Origin: a virus
IMG/VR virus record: IMGVR_UViG_3300027833_000142
Coordinates: 1 to 33,065 of that record
DNA length: 33,065 nucleotides
Reading direction: 5' to 3' (one strand)
Shown: positions 3,343-29,645 of the stretch, one piece after another
Layout of the letters: each line of letters starts with the position of its first letter
How positions within the stretch are numbered: position 1 is the stretch's first letter
Translations under genes and position numbers: made by a program
Notes under the pieces: generated by a model
The model's database searches: none
What the model was told of the DNA's origin: nothing
What the model saw: the letters and a program-made list of their open reading frames with translations, nothing else

Positions 3343-4184
3343 TGGAATTTAGAAAAGGATATACAATAAAACCTGCAGAAGTTTTAGGAACAGGAGAAAT
3401 TAGGTTTACTGATGGAACAAATGATGTTATACCAAATCAAAATGCTTGTGAAGCATACGGATATACTTATAATACTGCTACGGCTACCTGTAATGCTTTT
3501 AATTATAATTCAAGCTTGAATAGAAAGTTTAACAACATAACAAATAATACAAGTGGTGGTTCAACTGAAAGTGGAACTAGAAATACTTTAATTAATGGTC
3601 AAGAAAGTGTTACAAAAGGAAATAATTTTAATAATATTATTAATGGAGAAAAACATCAAATAGAAAATGGTATAAATAATTCTATAATTCTTGGAGGTTC
3701 ATACGGACAAGCAGAAAATCAAGGAGAAGTAGTTATAGGTGGAGGTGGTTTTAACGAAGCATTAGGTTTAGGATTAAGTCAACAATCTTTTGTGCAACAA
3801 TCTAATAAGACTACAGATGCTACAGAAACTGCTTTACTTACTCAATACCTACCAATTACATATATACAGAAAGTAAAAAATTCAGTAATAGGTTTTGAAG
3901 CTAATGTAATAGGTATTAATTATGGAGGAGAGGGAGAAGTTGGAGAATATGGATATGTTCAAATTACAGGTGCAGTAAAATTTACTAATGGTCTAGCATC
4001 AACATACTATCAAACATTAACACATATAGTAACGTCAGGACATAGTGGAATGAATATATCAGCTACAATGAAAGATGTAACGGCTACTTCTTTTGGTGTT
4101 CATGTTACAGGTATAGCAGGAACTAGAATACAATGGACTGCTAGTGTTAAATTATGGCAAAATCAATTACAAACAACATTTTAA
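3342..4184 (+). CDS. Short tail fibre / spike-like protein with beta-roll repeats
   Basis: A 280-residue protein. Residues about 65-145 carry short repeats rich in Asn, Gly and Ile ('NNIINGE', 'NSIILGGSYG', 'VVIGGGGFNEA'), the pattern of trimeric left-handed beta-roll stalks such as the YadA head and some phage fibre shafts. The C-terminal third is a beta-rich globular segment ending in 'WTASVKLWQNQLQTTF', a plausible receptor-binding head. The start overlaps the stop of the baseplate gene (TAATG) and the tape-measure gene follows 3 bases later. It is most likely a small receptor-binding or tail-tip fibre. No enzymatic motif is visible. Confidence 0.55.
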   Translation: MEFRKGYTIKPAEVLGTGEIRFTDGTNDVIPNQNACEAYGYTYNTATATCNAFNYNSSLNRKFNNITNNTSGGSTESGTRNTLINGQESVTKGNNFNNIINGEKHQIENGINNSIILGGSYGQAENQGEVVIGGGGFNEALGLGLSQQSFVQQSNKTTDATETALLTQYLPITYIQKVKNSVIGFEANVIGINYGGEGEVGEYGYVQITGAVKFTNGLASTYYQTLTHIVTSGHSGMNISATMKDVTATSFGVHVTGIAGTRIQWTASVKLWQNQLQTTF

Positions 4185-4187
4185 GAT

Positions 4188-5855
4188 ATGGCTAACGAAG
4201 AAATAGTAATGACAGTTAAAGCAGAGGTAAAACCTGCTACAAAACAAGTTGATGATTTAACAAAATCAATAGATAATGCAAAAGATGCTCAAAAAGAATT
4301 AAACGAGCAAATAAGTATTCAAAACAAAGTTCTAAATGATATGGAAAAAGAACTTGTTGAGTTAAAAGCTACACAAGATAAAATACCCAAAGGTGCTTTT
4401 TATGCAGGTATGGACGACTTGAATAAAAAGATAAAAGAAACAGAAAAAAATATAAAACTAGAAAAACTCGGTCTAAAAGATTTAGAAAATCAACAAAAAG
4501 ATAACAATAAAGTATTAAAAGAACAGGCACAAGTATCAAAAGAAGTTAACAAACAGGCTAAAGATTCTGTAGGTAATTTTAAACTGATGGGAGTTTCATT
4601 AAATGGTATAAAAGCATCATTTAAAAAAATAATACCATTAGCTAAAACAATGTTTGGAACTATAAAAGCAGGTTTATTGAGCACAGGTATAGGTGCTTTA
4701 CTAATTGCTTTTGGTTCATTAGCTACTTATTTTACTAGCACAAAAAGAGGTGCAGACCAATTAGCTACGGCTTTTGCAGGAATAAAAGCAGCAGTAAATG
4801 TTGTAAGAGATAGAATTGCAAGTTTAGGAGAAACATTTAGTAATTTATTTAATCAAAGTTTCTTTCAAACCTTAAAAGATGTAAGAAATGCCTTTAGAGG
4901 AATCACTACAGAAATAAAAGAAGAAGTTACTGTAATGGTAGAATTAGAAAAAAGAGTAAAAACTTTGAGAGATGAAGAAAACCAATTTGTAATACAGAGA
5001 GCAAAAACAAGAATGTCTATTGAAAGTGCTAGGTTGATGGCAGAAGATGAATCTAAATCAACACAACAAAGAATATTATTACTTAAAGAAGCTCTTAGAC
5101 TTGAAAAGAAAACAGTTACAGAAGAAATTAGGTTAGCACAAGAAAAAAAAGATATTCAAGAAGAACAAATGGCTACTGCTGAAAATATGGTAGAAGCAGA
5201 AAAAAAACTTGCTGATTTAGAAGCTGATTTAATAAATAAACAGACCAAATCATTTAGGTTACAAAAAAGAGTACAAACTGAAATAAATGAATTAAGAAGG
5301 GAAGAAGAAACAGAAGAAAAGAGATTACATGATTTAAAAGTTAAAAATGCTGATGATTGGTTTAAACAAACTATGAACCAAATAGAAGCAATAAAACAAG
5401 CAAGGTTAGCATATTTAAGTGCAATAGGAAATGCAGTTGGGCAATTAGGTAATTTAATGGAAGAAGGTTCTGCTTCTGCGAAAGCTTTGGCTCTAACAGA
5501 AATTGCAATTAATACTGCGGTTGGTTTTATGCAAGGTTTAAATATTGCACAAAAATCTGCTCAAGCTGCAGGACCTGCTGCTGCATTAGCTTTTCCTATT
5601 TTTTATGCTAGTCAAATAGCAGCAGTTTTAGGTGCAGTCAATTCTGCTAAAGGAATTCTAGGTGCAGGAGGAGGGAGTGTTTCAACAACCACACCAAATT
5701 TAAGTGGTTCAACACCTGCACCTGAAATGTTGAGTGGTGCTTTTACTTTAAATAACCCTACAGAACAACAACCTGTACAAGCTTATGTAGTTACAGACAA
5801 CTTAACAGATAATCAAAATAAATTAGCGTATATCCGTAGGAGAGCAACAATTTAA
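4188..5855 (+). CDS. Tape measure protein
   Basis: A 555-residue protein with the composition of a tape measure. Residues about 15-125 and 240-390 are Lys/Glu-rich coiled coil. A hydrophobic segment lies around 150-185 and a second Ala/Gly-rich hydrophobic stretch around 420-490. The C-terminus is a Ser/Thr/Pro-rich linker followed by a conserved-looking tail ending in 'NKLAYIRRRATI', typical of Bacteroidota phage tape measures. It would set tail length and help eject DNA. The length predicts a fairly short siphovirus tail (roughly 80 nm by the usual 0.15 nm per residue rule). Its place downstream of the baseplate and fibre genes, and directly before the head genes, reverses the common siphophage order. 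Confidence 0.85.
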   Translation: MANEEIVMTVKAEVKPATKQVDDLTKSIDNAKDAQKELNEQISIQNKVLNDMEKELVELKATQDKIPKGAFYAGMDDLNKKIKETEKNIKLEKLGLKDLENQQKDNNKVLKEQAQVSKEVNKQAKDSVGNFKLMGVSLNGIKASFKKIIPLAKTMFGTIKAGLLSTGIGALLIAFGSLATYFTSTKRGADQLATAFAGIKAAVNVVRDRIASLGETFSNLFNQSFFQTLKDVRNAFRGITTEIKEEVTVMVELEKRVKTLRDEENQFVIQRAKTRMSIESARLMAEDESKSTQQRILLLKEALRLEKKTVTEEIRLAQEKKDIQEEQMATAENMVEAEKKLADLEADLINKQTKSFRLQKRVQTEINELRREEETEEKRLHDLKVKNADDWFKQTMNQIEAIKQARLAYLSAIGNAVGQLGNLMEEGSASAKALALTEIAINTAVGFMQGLNIAQKSAQAAGPAAALAFPIFYASQIAAVLGAVNSAKGILGAGGGSVSTTTPNLSGSTPAPEMLSGAFTLNNPTEQQPVQAYVVTDNLTDNQNKLAYIRRRATI

Positions 5856-5879
5856 AAATCAAATATTAATTAATTAAAT

Positions 5880-6628: not shown

Positions 6629-6638
6629 CTATTATATA
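6629..6638 (+). promoter_or_regulatory. CTATTATATA motif, copy 2 (putative phage promoter core)
   Basis: An exact copy of the motif three bases after the protease stop. Unlike the other four copies it lies 16 bases before the next ATG (6655). This copy argues against the motif being part of the translation start itself and fits a promoter better. Confidence 0.5.
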
Positions 6639-25928: not shown

Positions 25929-25941
25929 ATAACAAACAATT

Positions 25942-25951
25942 CTATTATATA
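25942..25951 (+). promoter_or_regulatory. CTATTATATA motif, copy 4 (putative phage promoter core)
   Basis: An exact copy, ending two bases (CT) before the ATG at 25954. It heads the base-modification and terminase block and marks the switch from early to late genes. The upstream sequence is AAACAATT. Confidence 0.55.
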
Positions 25952-25953
25952 CT

Positions 25954-26514
25954 ATGAAACTAAAAATCAATGAGTTAAAACCAAACGTAAGCAATCCGAG
26001 GATAATTAAAGAATCTAAATTTAAAAAACTTGTTAAGTCTATTAAAGATTTTCCTGAAATGTTAGAACTGCGACCAATAATCGTAGATGAAGATATGACA
26101 ATTCTAGGAGGAAATATGAGGTACAAAGCAAGTGTTGAGGCAGGGCTGAAAGAAGTACACGTAAAAGTAGCCAAAGGACTAACAGAAGAACAGAAACAAG
26201 AATTTATAGTAAAAGACAACGTCGGTTTTGGAGAGTGGGATTGGAGTATATTGGCTAATGAATGGGATAATATTAAGCTAGGAGATTGGGGAATGGATGT
26301 TTGGCAACCTGAAAAAGAAGTTGATTACTCTATATTAGATGACATAGACTTAGGCTCAACTTTAGATGATAAAACTTCAGCAGTCAAGAGAGGTATAGTT
26401 ATAGAGTTTGAAGCTAATGAATATGATGAAGCTAACGAACTAATTACACAAGCAAGGAAAGGCGGAAAGAATGTCGGTGTAATTGTATTAAACGCTTTTA
26501 GGAATGAAGCATAA
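25954..26514 (+). CDS. ParB-like nuclease-domain protein
   Basis: A 186-residue protein. Residues 1-80 form a ParB/Srx-type domain: 'NPR' (14-16), 'RPIIVDEDMTILGGNMRYKASVEAGL' with G52-G53-N54-x-R56. Residues about 85-125 ('KDNVGFGEWDWSILANEWDNIKLGDWGMD') match the module after ParB domains of phage methyltransferase fusions. Here no methyltransferase follows; instead a 50-residue beta/alpha domain ends the protein. In phage base-modification gene clusters, ParB-like proteins are common neighbours of TET/JBP enzymes and glycosyltransferases, as here. It may recognise DNA or assist the modification enzymes. It is probably not a chromosome-partitioning protein, as no ParA is present. Confidence 0.75.
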   Translation: MKLKINELKPNVSNPRIIKESKFKKLVKSIKDFPEMLELRPIIVDEDMTILGGNMRYKASVEAGLKEVHVKVAKGLTEEQKQEFIVKDNVGFGEWDWSILANEWDNIKLGDWGMDVWQPEKEVDYSILDDIDLGSTLDDKTSAVKRGIVIEFEANEYDEANELITQARKGGKNVGVIVLNAFRNEA

Positions 26515-27184
26515 TGTTTATGTAATATCAGCAGGTAGATATGACAAACTTCCTTTTACTTTAGAACAAAAAAAGAAATACATATTTTGTGTAAAGAACG
26601 GAGAGAGTAAATTGTATAAAGCAAATGATTGTAAAAATGTATTTGAAACAGGTAACTTAATGAGAAGTAGAAATTTTGCATTACAACACGCTTTTGATAA
26701 TAACAAAATATGCGTTCAATTAAGTGATGATATAAAAAAAGTTGTAGTAAATAAAAACTTTGGAGAACCTAAAAGAGTTGAACTTGATTATGCGATAGAA
26801 GATATTGTTTCAAAATTTAATAAAGTTAAAGGAATAAAGTTGTTAGGCATACCACCAACAGATAATTATTTTTTTGCTAACAAAATAGTAAGTACTAATA
26901 CTTTTTGTATAGGCGACATGTTGTTTGTAAAACCAAATGAATTAAGATTTGATGAACAATTAACATTGAAAGAAGATTACGATTACACATTACAACATAA
27001 AGAAAGAGGAGATGTTATCAGGTATCAAAAATATCTATTCTCTTTTGAACATTACTCTAATAAAGGTGGTGCCGTTGATGTGAGAGATGACAAAGAAGAA
27101 CAAAAGAATATACAAATACTAAAATCTAAATGGGGGGATAAGATTAAACTAAACCCTAAAAGAAAAAATGAAATATTAATATGA
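26504..27184 (+). CDS. Putative DNA-base glycosyltransferase (TET/JBP-associated type)
   Basis: A 226-residue protein with GT-A features: 'VYVISAGRYDKLP' as the first strand, 'LMRSRNFALQHAF' (nucleotide-sugar side helix), 'ICVQLSDDIKKV' with a DxD-like D75-D76 after the strand, and 'LTLKEDYDYTLQH' (E157-D158, D160) as the probable catalytic segment. It overlaps the ParB gene by 11 bases and the dioxygenase by 4. This fits the TET/JBP-associated glycosyltransferases described in comparative surveys of phage DNA modification (Iyer and colleagues). The likely reaction is transfer of a sugar to a hydroxymethyl base made by the downstream dioxygenase. Glycosylation of a virion protein is the alternative. 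Confidence 0.7.
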   Translation: MKHNVYVISAGRYDKLPFTLEQKKKYIFCVKNGESKLYKANDCKNVFETGNLMRSRNFALQHAFDNNKICVQLSDDIKKVVVNKNFGEPKRVELDYAIEDIVSKFNKVKGIKLLGIPPTDNYFFANKIVSTNTFCIGDMLFVKPNELRFDEQLTLKEDYDYTLQHKERGDVIRYQKYLFSFEHYSNKGGAVDVRDDKEEQKNIQILKSKWGDKIKLNPKRKNEILI

Positions 27185-27990
27185 ATATAATTAAACTTGA
27201 AAAAGTAGAACACAACCGAAAGGTGGGTAAGAGATGCGAATACATTGAACCTAACGTAAAAGAAGATTGTTTATTAGAATCTGATGGGGAGGTAATAGGT
27301 TTTTATATCAAAGATGTAAACAAGTATAGTAAAAAGCTAGGGGCATTGATAGATATAGCCAATAAAGAGTTTAGAAGCAAGAACGTGCCTAAGTCATTAT
27401 TAGAAAGAAGTGATGTGTTCAGTAAAGTTTACAAAGAAGGTATGTCAAGGAAAGATGCTATGGCAACAGGAACTGTGCAGATGAGTGCAATACTTGGCTC
27501 AATACCACCTAAACCACATATGAGAAGACCTTACCCTACAATATCTTCAGTACACAGAGAACCAAAAGCAAAGACATTTATAAAAGCTATGTGGGGTGCT
27601 TGTGTTGAAGCTGAAAAGATAGTAAAAGAATTAACACCTAAATTATATGACAGGCAAATAGAACTCTTTAAAGAAATAAAAAAAGATTGGAAGTTTGGTA
27701 ATATGTTTACAAGCAGTATATCAAATTTTAATATTTCGGCACCTTTTCACAGAGATACAGGAAACTTAGAAGGCACAGTAAACATTATCCTTACGAAAAG
27801 AAACAATGCTAATGGTGGTTGTTTAAACGTACCTGACTATAACGCAACATTTGAACAAGCTGATAACTCTATGCTTGTGTATCCTGCTTGGAGAAACGTA
27901 CACGGAGTAACACCAATTAAACAAATAGCTGATGATGGTTATAGAAACTCATTAATATTCTATCCATTAAAAGCATTTAAAGGAATATAA
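27181..27990 (+). CDS. TET/JBP-like 2-oxoglutarate/Fe(II) dioxygenase (DNA base oxidation)
   Basis: A 269-residue protein. The C-terminal half shows the double-stranded beta-helix residues of the TET/JBP family: 'SAPFHRDTGN' (H190-x-D192, Fe ligands), 'GGCLNVPDYNATFEQADNSMLVYPAWRNVHGVTP' in segments with H241 as the third ligand, and 'GYRNSLIFYPL' with R255 to hold 2-oxoglutarate. The N-terminal half is helical with a variable DNA-binding role. The family oxidises the methyl group of thymine (JBP) or 5-methylcytosine (TET). The gene shares bases with the glycosyltransferase upstream and precedes the small terminase. No C5-methyltransferase is encoded, so thymine is the more likely substrate. 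Confidence 0.82.
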   Translation: MNIIKLEKVEHNRKVGKRCEYIEPNVKEDCLLESDGEVIGFYIKDVNKYSKKLGALIDIANKEFRSKNVPKSLLERSDVFSKVYKEGMSRKDAMATGTVQMSAILGSIPPKPHMRRPYPTISSVHREPKAKTFIKAMWGACVEAEKIVKELTPKLYDRQIELFKEIKKDWKFGNMFTSSISNFNISAPFHRDTGNLEGTVNIILTKRNNANGGCLNVPDYNATFEQADNSMLVYPAWRNVHGVTPIKQIADDGYRNSLIFYPLKAFKGI

Positions 27991-27991
27991 T

Positions 27992-28345
27992 ATGGACGAA
28001 AGTAGACACATAAAAAAGGAAACTATACTAAAGGCGTTAGAAAAATCATTAGGTGTTGTAACAGTTGCCTGTAAATCAGCAGATGTTCCACGTAGCACAT
28101 ATTACAAATGGTTAAAAGAAGATGAATCATTTTCTAAAGAAGTTAAAGATATTGAAAACATAGCATTAGACTTTGGAGAAAGCCAATTACATAAACAGAT
28201 AGGAGATGGAAACACTTCGGCTACTATATTTTTTTTAAAGACAAAGGGAAAGAAAAGAGGTTACATTGAACGAAGCGAGTTAGATTTAACATCAGGAGAT
28301 GAACCAATTAAAATTAATGTAAATATCAAAGGAATTGAATATTGA
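27992..28345 (+). CDS. Terminase small subunit
   Basis: A 117-residue protein with an N-terminal helix-turn-helix ('VTVACKSADVPRSTYYKWLKED') of the phage small-terminase type, then a helical oligomerisation segment and 'GDGNTSATIFFLKTKGKKRGYIER', common in this family. It lies one base after the dioxygenase stop and overlaps the large terminase gene by 11 bases. It would recognise the packaging site in concatemeric DNA. If DNA is hypermodified, this protein must recognise the modified form. Confidence 0.85.
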   Translation: MDESRHIKKETILKALEKSLGVVTVACKSADVPRSTYYKWLKEDESFSKEVKDIENIALDFGESQLHKQIGDGNTSATIFFLKTKGKKRGYIERSELDLTSGDEPIKINVNIKGIEY

Positions 28346-29645
28346 TACTGAATTTACCCATACTCAAGGACAAGCGATTGAATACTTGTTTGATGATAAG
28401 ACTACAGAAGTTTTGTTCGGTGGTGCAGCAGGTGGTGGTAAATCTTGGGTTGGTTGTAGTTGGTTAATTCTTTTATGTCTTAAATATCCTAAGACAAGAT
28501 ACTTAATGGGCAGGTCTAAATTAGATGCTCTTAAAAAGACTACACTAAACACTTTCTTTGAAGTATGTCAAGAGTGGGGTATAATTGCAAACAAGCATTA
28601 CAATTTTAATGCAGGTTCTAACATTATTAAGTTTTATAATGGTAGTGAGATAATACTTAAAGACTTGTTCTTATATCCATCAGACAGAAACTTTGATAGT
28701 TTGGGTTCATTAGAAATAACTGCTGCTTTTATAGATGAGGCAAATCAAATAACAGAGAAGGCAAAGAACATAGTAGCATCTAGAATGAGATATAAGTTAG
28801 ACCAATATAATATTATACCTAAACTACTAATGACTTGTAACCCTGCTAAGAATTGGGTATATACACAATACTACAAACCTGCAAAGGAAGGAACACAAAA
28901 ACCATATAGACAATTTATTCAAAGCTTAGTTGATGACAATGAGTTTATTTCTAAGCATTATAAGAAACAACTTTTAACATTAGATGAATTAAGTAAGCAA
29001 AGATTATTATTCGGTAATTGGGAATATGATGCAACTAATGATAATTTAATAGATTATGATGCTATACTTAATTTATTTAATCAAAATGGTGTTGAGGGAG
29101 ATAAATACATAAGTTGTGATGTGGCTCGTTTTGGAAGCGATAAGACAGTTATAATGTATTGGGAAGGGCTTCATATTAAAAAGATAAGAAGTATCCTTAA
29201 ATCAGCAGTAAACGAAGTTGTAGATGAGATTAGGGTAATGCAACAACAAAACAATGTAAGATTAACAAATATTATAGTTGATGAAGATGGTGTTGGTGGT
29301 GGTGTTAAAGATTATATGCGTTGCAGAGGTTTTGTCAATAATTCTAGGGCAATGAAAGGGGAGAACTATCAAAACCTTAAAACTCAATGTTATTATAAGT
29401 TAGCTGATTTAATTAACGAAGGACAGATTGGTATTGATTGCCCTGATATTAATACTAAAAACCATATCATTGAAGAACTAGAACAAGTAAGGACTAAAGA
29501 TGCTGACAAAGATAACAAGCTACAAATCATACCTAAGGACAATGTAAAAGATATTATAGGCAGGTCGCCTGATTACGCTGATGCTCTAGCTATGAGAATG
29601 TATTTTGAAATAGATGGTAACTTTGGTAAGTATTTTGTGCAATAA
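28335..29645 (+). CDS. Terminase large subunit
   Basis: A 436-residue protein with ATPase Walker A 'GGAAGGGKSW' (K36), Walker B 'AAFIDEA' (D134-E135), motif III around 'LLMTCNPAKNW', and nuclease acidic residues D262 ('CDVARFGSDK'), D316 ('IIVDEDGVGGG') and D416 ('SPDYADALAM'). It pumps DNA into the prohead and cuts it. The start appears to be TTG at 28335, because no ATG exists before residue 54 and the N-terminal segment up to Walker A is needed for the adenine pocket. Followed by a hairpin terminator. The circular, apparently permuted genome with no fixed ends suggests headful packaging. Confidence 0.93.
   Translation: MNIDTEFTHTQGQAIEYLFDDKTTEVLFGGAAGGGKSWVGCSWLILLCLKYPKTRYLMGRSKLDALKKTTLNTFFEVCQEWGIIANKHYNFNAGSNIIKFYNGSEIILKDLFLYPSDRNFDSLGSLEITAAFIDEANQITEKAKNIVASRMRYKLDQYNIIPKLLMTCNPAKNWVYTQYYKPAKEGTQKPYRQFIQSLVDDNEFISKHYKKQLLTLDELSKQRLLFGNWEYDATNDNLIDYDAILNLFNQNGVEGDKYISCDVARFGSDKTVIMYWEGLHIKKIRSILKSAVNEVVDEIRVMQQQNNVRLTNIIVDEDGVGGGVKDYMRCRGFVNNSRAMKGENYQNLKTQCYYKLADLINEGQIGIDCPDINTKNHIIEELEQVRTKDADKDNKLQIIPKDNVKDIIGRSPDYADALAMRMYFEIDGNFGKYFVQ

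Follow-up and report, generated by a model that had tools for sequence, protein, structure and literature searches.

A ParB-TET/JBP gene unit with an exchangeable middle gene, a probable thymine-modification cassette in a phage genome

Base J of kinetoplastids is made in two steps: JBP1 and JBP2 make 5-hydroxymethyluracil (5hmU) from thymine in DNA, and JGT then adds a sugar. Phage modification systems that pair TET/JBP dioxygenases with TAGT glycosyltransferases, a family named for its association with TET, were reportedly predicted in a comparative-genomic study (Iyer et al. 2013, NAR 41:7635; cited in PMC8670742), and according to Burke et al. 2021 (PNAS) phage TET is said to act together with a C5-cytosine methyltransferase (C5-MTase) and glycosyltransferases on cytosine. 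Phages M6, ViI and phiW-14 hypermodify thymidine by means of 5hmdU, a DNA kinase and amino-acid or amine transfer, and in M6 the modification is thought to proceed via 5hmdU and a 5hmdU DNA kinase (PMC6449724). The marine phage DNA analysed here, referred to as the window, is the 33,065-nucleotide virus record IMGVR_UViG_3300027833_000142 of IMG/VR. It carries a unit of the same enzyme families, in the same kind of neighbourhood, as the systems of Iyer 2013. Like base J synthesis, the pathway proposed for it would take thymine to 5hmU in DNA with a TET/JBP enzyme and then add a sugar; it differs in using phage enzymes, with a TAGT in place of JGT, in its linkage to packaging genes and in its interchangeable tailoring. 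The TET family and sugar transferases are common to the window and the systems of Burke 2021, whereas the C5-MTase is absent from the window. With the glucosyl-hydroxymethylcytosine of T-even phages it would share a glycosylated hydroxymethylpyrimidine as protection, and the window's glycosyltransferase (GT) bears the label PHROG 842, but the window has no thymidylate-synthase-family dCMP hydroxymethylase. M6 makes 5hmdU at the nucleotide level and possesses a thymidylate-synthase-type gene, while the TET of the window would make 5hmU in DNA. The kinase and amino acid:DNA transferase (ADDT) of the M6, ViI and phiW-14 pathways have counterparts beside TET in relatives of the window (L200, L246 and actinophages); the window itself has no ADDT, and its slot is occupied by a GT. 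TET/TAGT neighbourhoods are already known, and it is the exchange slot that looks new. To our knowledge, Iyer 2013 does not describe a one-gene exchange slot that separates ParB from TET, nor where its junctions lie or how wide its range of occupants is, and a literature search, with Iyer 2013 and Burke 2021 outside its reach, returned no report of such an exchange.

The unit consists of ordinary parts in a known kind of neighbourhood, but its organisation is unusual. The open reading frames and their Pfam and PHROG matches (Table 1) bear out the description in an earlier note of three overlapping genes directly 5' of the terminase genes, and the linkage of the cassette to the terminase is conserved in relatives. 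In the window the frames overlap by 11 nt (ParB/GT) and 4 nt (GT/TET), and most loci, across slot types, retain 4-nt overlaps of the sort seen in coupled translation. The evidence supports the view that the unit is a DNA-modification cassette. We consider it likely that this operon serves the hypermodification of thymine after replication and that its tailoring slot is swappable. The TET/JBP enzyme would hydroxylate thymine of phage DNA at its methyl group to give 5hmU, and the enzyme encoded in the middle slot would then decorate the hydroxyl group. In the window, the TAGT-type GT-A glycosyltransferase would add a sugar and, since it is the only tailoring gene, the expected product is glycosylated 5hmU, a base-J-like glycosyl-oxymethyluracil. 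In relatives the slot chemistry would be that of another GT, a GT with a sulfotransferase, an FkbM methyltransferase, a kinase, or a kinase with an ADDT. As the GT is one of many interchangeable slot enzymes, the term base-J-like fits the variant of this genome and not the whole family. The ParB-domain protein would assist in targeting or loading the enzymes. Recombination within the flanks that are conserved, with ParB to the left and TET-terS to the right, would swap the slot gene while the oxidation step is kept, and the change of decoration would presumably protect the DNA from restriction enzymes and modification-dependent nucleases.

Table 1. Features of the modification unit and its surroundings in the window
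Feature	Position	Strand	Remarks
Leaderless-promoter-like element TTCTATTATATAnTATG	25940..25956	+	ends in the ParB start codon
ParB_N-domain protein, 186 aa	25954..26514	+	first gene of the unit; PF02195, 3.1e-6, above cut-off
TAGT-type GT-A glycosyltransferase, 226 aa	26504..27184	+	slot occupant here; PF20691, 6.2e-8, above cut-off
Exchange interval, exactly the middle gene	26506..27177		DNA homology with sister locus L003 lost, then regained
TET/JBP-family Fe(II)/2-oxoglutarate DNA dioxygenase, 269 aa	27181..27990	+	PF12851, 1.5e-10; proposed thymine 5-hydroxylase
Terminase small subunit-like protein	27992..28345	+	PHROG terminase small, 1.8e-8; adjoins the unit in relatives too (syntenic)
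Terminase large subunit	28335..29645	+	Terminase_3, PF04466, 1.3e-16

The two ends of the record share a 95-nt overlap with 96.8% identity, which indicates that the record is probably near-complete; the "apparently complete" circle of the earlier note holds to that extent, the overlap being inexact and so no proof of completeness. The nearest cultured relative of the terminase large subunit is that of Flavobacterium phage 11b (56%), from which a host among the Flavobacteriia can only be guessed. Two scans of host genome contigs found no prophage relatives.

The dioxygenase scores 41.0 bits against the Pfam Tet_JBP family, above the curated cut-off of 34.9. H190, D192, H241 and R255, which the first reading of the sequence had picked out as being in TET/JBP order, were found at exactly those positions; they complete the Fe/2-oxoglutarate motif and are invariant across 170 distinct relatives. 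The structure model (pLDDT 93) has only CcTet, TET2, NgTet1 and CMD1 among its best 26 PDB matches, with AlkB ranking after them. The fold search thus places the enzyme in the TET branch and rules out the prolyl-hydroxylase branch, the placement that the earlier note had named as refuting its reading. When the profiles of the TET, the GT and the kinase were searched against PDB sequences, a weak TET2 match was all that came back. The depositors of phage Prince labelled its TET-type protein a "thymidine hydroxylase". We infer that the window's dioxygenase likely oxidises thymine in phage DNA.

The slot was surveyed in 214 ParB+TET loci from three IMG/VR scans and isolates, near-copies included (149 after dereplication). 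In these 214 loci the ParB gene lies 5' of the slot and TET, with one gene between them in 194, several in 12 and none in 8. TAGT-type GTs occupy 108 slots and fall into 11 divergent subfamilies at the 45% level; FkbM methyltransferases (PF05050) occupy 83, nearly all with MED4-184-type TETs; and the kinases comprise 8 small P-loop kinases and 5 of a second type. Four loci (L210, L213, L215 and L231, e.g. L231:5435-5998) have a sulfotransferase (PF03567, 4e-15) between the slot GT and TET, which would possibly place a sulfated sugar on DNA. We know of no established role on DNA bases for FkbM methyltransferases, or for a sulfotransferase on a glycosylated base. The slot of L200 contains a glutamine amidotransferase, a GNAT protein, an ADDT (PF18724, 1e-10) and a kinase together, that of L246 an amidotransferase, an ADDT-like protein and a kinase, and four further slots were found with a kinase and a 338-aa protein that has PHROG 3271 in common with ADDTs. 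Two occupants gave no Pfam or PHROG match, one of 301 aa (S6, in L206, L237 and L243) and one of 84 aa (S10, L131:5059-5313). The classifiable occupants are nearly all base- or sugar-tailoring enzymes, i.e. GT, methyltransferase, kinase, ADDT, sulfotransferase, glutamine amidotransferase and GNAT. The slot kinases distantly match PHROG 800 (E about 1e-4), a family that includes gp54 of Pseudomonas phage M6, which is reportedly the 5hmdU DNA kinase (Lee et al. 2018), and it is this profile alone that connects them to it; a direct link between the slot kinases and M6 gp54 by our own HMM and hhalign was not significant (hhalign probability 9%). At L038:8599-10004 two different slot GTs stand in tandem, perhaps an exchange intermediate or a two-sugar decoration.

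Close sister phages differ completely in slot content. The window and its sister locus L003 have TETs that are 96% and ParBs that are 93% identical, and in their flanking DNA the identity is 88-89%, on the left as far as 26506 and on the right from 27177 onwards; between these two positions no DNA homology was detected. For 22 of the 23 listed pairs, homology ends near the ParB stop and resumes near the TET start, within a few tens of nt, and the exceptional pair differs by an extra small gene only; in close sister pairs most breakpoints are no further than about 15 nt from a gene end. The recurrence of identical junctions in separately assembled contigs argues against chimeric assemblies. On the TET tree slot content changes at least 57 times, against a possible minimum of 19 and 99 with shuffled labels, so that a given slot content is passed on for some time before it is exchanged. 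Ordinary phage mosaicism, with the functional theme of the slot incidental, could account for such replacements, and the rates are in line with it: the slot lacks a homologue in 33% of pairs, and positions -1, -3 to -7 and +4 in 22-36%, in a comparison where the conservation of ParB and TET stems partly from pair selection. The slot was therefore dropped as a replacement hot spot by rate, which resembles that of other mosaic positions. Nevertheless, random replacement would not yield near-uniform tailoring enzymes, and only 2% of pairs show a replacement of the adjoining terS, so that we regard an incidental theme as unlikely. The slot stands out by its functional theme and its boundaries, not by its rate, and mosaicism rivals only the selective meaning of the exchange, not the chemistry. 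On balance we favour a fixed ParB-TET platform that writes 5hmU and has one exchangeable slot, so that sister phages would have chemically different genomes, their final bases diversified into sugars, a sulfated sugar, O-methyl, phosphate and amino-acid adducts. If this is true, phage DNA chemistry would switch like an antigen, one gene swap replacing the outer decoration, and the slot would offer an ordered series of candidate enzymes that share a single intermediate, 5hmU-DNA, as their substrate.

Isolated phages contain related neighbourhoods. The order in MED4-184 is ParB, FkbM methyltransferase, TET, a gene in the terS position and terL; Nigel has ParB-TET-terS-terL, and Margaery has ParB-TET, one gene without assignment and the terminase. 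In the Arthrobacter phage Prairie, ParB is followed, further along, by TET-TAGT-PIG-L deacetylase. Gordonia phage CloverMinnie has ParB-TET-ADDT-kinase, one gene without assignment and the terminase; Tonitrus has ParB, a gene without assignment and TET, followed further along by ADDT-kinase; and the order in the Mycobacterium smegmatis phage Prince is ParB, the "thymidine hydroxylase", ADDT, "adenylate kinase" and the terminase, the kinase being assigned by its annotation only. Nonlabens phage P12024L has TET and TAGT adjacent, with no ParB gene beside them.

As to the substrate, no match to PF00145 (C5-MTase) was found in the window record, with a working positive control, and neither the window nor those relatives that were tested gave a match to PF00303 (thymidylate-synthase type), for which M6 was the positive control. 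The record thus holds neither a C5-MTase nor a hydroxymethyl-nucleotide synthase, as had been claimed from the first reading. Two routes were rejected for the window on these grounds, i.e. T4-like or M6-like synthesis at the nucleotide level and a route through a phage-encoded C5-MTase. PF00145 was likewise not found in eight complete isolate genomes with related TETs (MED4-184, Nigel, Prairie, Margaery, P12024L, Tonitrus, CloverMinnie and Prince), and two sets of related contigs, many of them fragments, were without it in 33 of 34 and in 45 of 50 cases. ADDT (PF18724) is a slot gene in L200 and L246, and it adjoins ParB-TET in the phages CloverMinnie, Tonitrus and Prince. L246 and the latter three phages possess TET, a kinase-like gene and ADDT and lack C5-MTase and thymidylate-synthase-type genes; in such phages the 5hmU that ADDT/kinase pathways start from (PMC6449724) would arise most simply from oxidised thymine. 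The absence of C5-MTase and thymidylate-synthase-type genes, together with the co-occurrence of ParB-TET with 5hmdU-kinase-like and ADDT genes, makes thymine the likeliest substrate. To that extent the earlier proposal of thymine oxidation is supported, and the sugar transfer proposed with it would follow.

The rival reading is a cytosine route, in which 5mC, supplied by a methyltransferase of the host or by one that escaped recognition, would be oxidised to 5hmC by TET and then decorated by the slot enzyme, in the manner of phages whose own C5-MTase gene adjoins that of the TET. Host-made 5mC is compatible with a phage that lacks a C5-MTase, the solved fold neighbours of the TET are mostly 5mC oxidases, and PF00145 does match in 6 of the 84 IMG/VR records with a related TET, including that of L200. 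In Melnitz, which served as a positive control, an HhaI-like C5-MTase was detected directly before TET, and the pair is followed by a kinase distantly like the slot kinase; a kinase alone is consequently no proof of thymine. N195 of the HRDxxN motif, presumably at the site of the 5mC-contacting Asn of TET2, does not discriminate between the two bases. We nevertheless judge the cytosine route to be quite improbable, as neither the window nor the eight complete isolate genomes encode a C5-MTase, the ADDT and kinase partners belong to thymidine-hypermodification families, and sparse host 5mC would give few modified sites. Between the C5-MTase-TET pair and the kinase of Melnitz (L087) lies a 427-aa protein without a family match (3713-4996), a candidate tailoring enzyme of a cytosine pathway.

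The thymine reading gives the GT the second step. Its Pfam TAGT score is 33.3 bits against a curated cut-off of 27.5, and its AlphaFold model, of moderate confidence (pLDDT 78), matches the GT-A enzymes K4CP (K4 chondroitin polymerase) and WrtF in Foldseek (E about 1e-4, TM about 0.55). These fold matches, and an acidic metal motif, D75-D76, that is invariant in the aligned TAGT subfamilies, agree with the GT-A motifs noted earlier in the partner enzyme. It is highly improbable that the GT has a protein of the virion or the host as its target while TET acts on DNA independently, even though GT-A folds are general and the nearest PDB matches are polysaccharide enzymes, since TAGT is a TET-associated family, TET and TAGT are adjacent in P12024L without ParB and in the TET-TAGT-PIG-L deacetylase order of Prairie, and the translational overlap with TET is retained across slot types.

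The ParB protein matches PHROGs of ParB-bearing DNA methyltransferases and ParB-like nucleases, and its motif GGNMRYKA is conserved in close relatives; we propose that it is a targeting or accessory factor. The label "DNA methylase" of CPAG_00033 in NC_020847 (L001:15790-16431) is misleading, as this is a bare ParB-domain protein. The 17-nt element TTCTATTATATAnTATG has copies at 5878, 8979, 25940 and 29739 of the window and a partial copy at 6629, i.e. five matches against 0.25 expected. Four of them lie at start codons, the ATG of the element being the start codon; the genes concerned are ParB, the one that follows terL and two others. Several relatives likewise have the element 5' of ParB and behind terL, and it may be a leaderless late promoter. 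It looks like a shared promoter that links the modification/terminase operon with genes elsewhere in the genome. That the DNA is modified late, before encapsidation, as suggested earlier, would be consistent with a start-codon element common to ParB and three other genes, which lends it circumstantial support.

The Nonlabens phages P12024S (L251) and P12024L (L252) infect the same cultured host strain, and for the greater part of their length their identity is 96-99%. Their largest difference, at about 16.2-18.7 kb, sets TET-TAGT-N4/N6 methyltransferase in P12024L against an ATPase/GNAT protein in P12024S, and no TET was found when P12024S was examined as a TET carrier. The pair is a natural experiment in which the question of thymine versus cytosine for a phage TET is directly testable. 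Two database labels can also be corrected: PHROG 6059, misleadingly labelled "queuine tRNA-ribosyltransferase", is the family of the window's TET, and PHROG 800, misleadingly labelled "terminase small subunit", includes M6 gp54.
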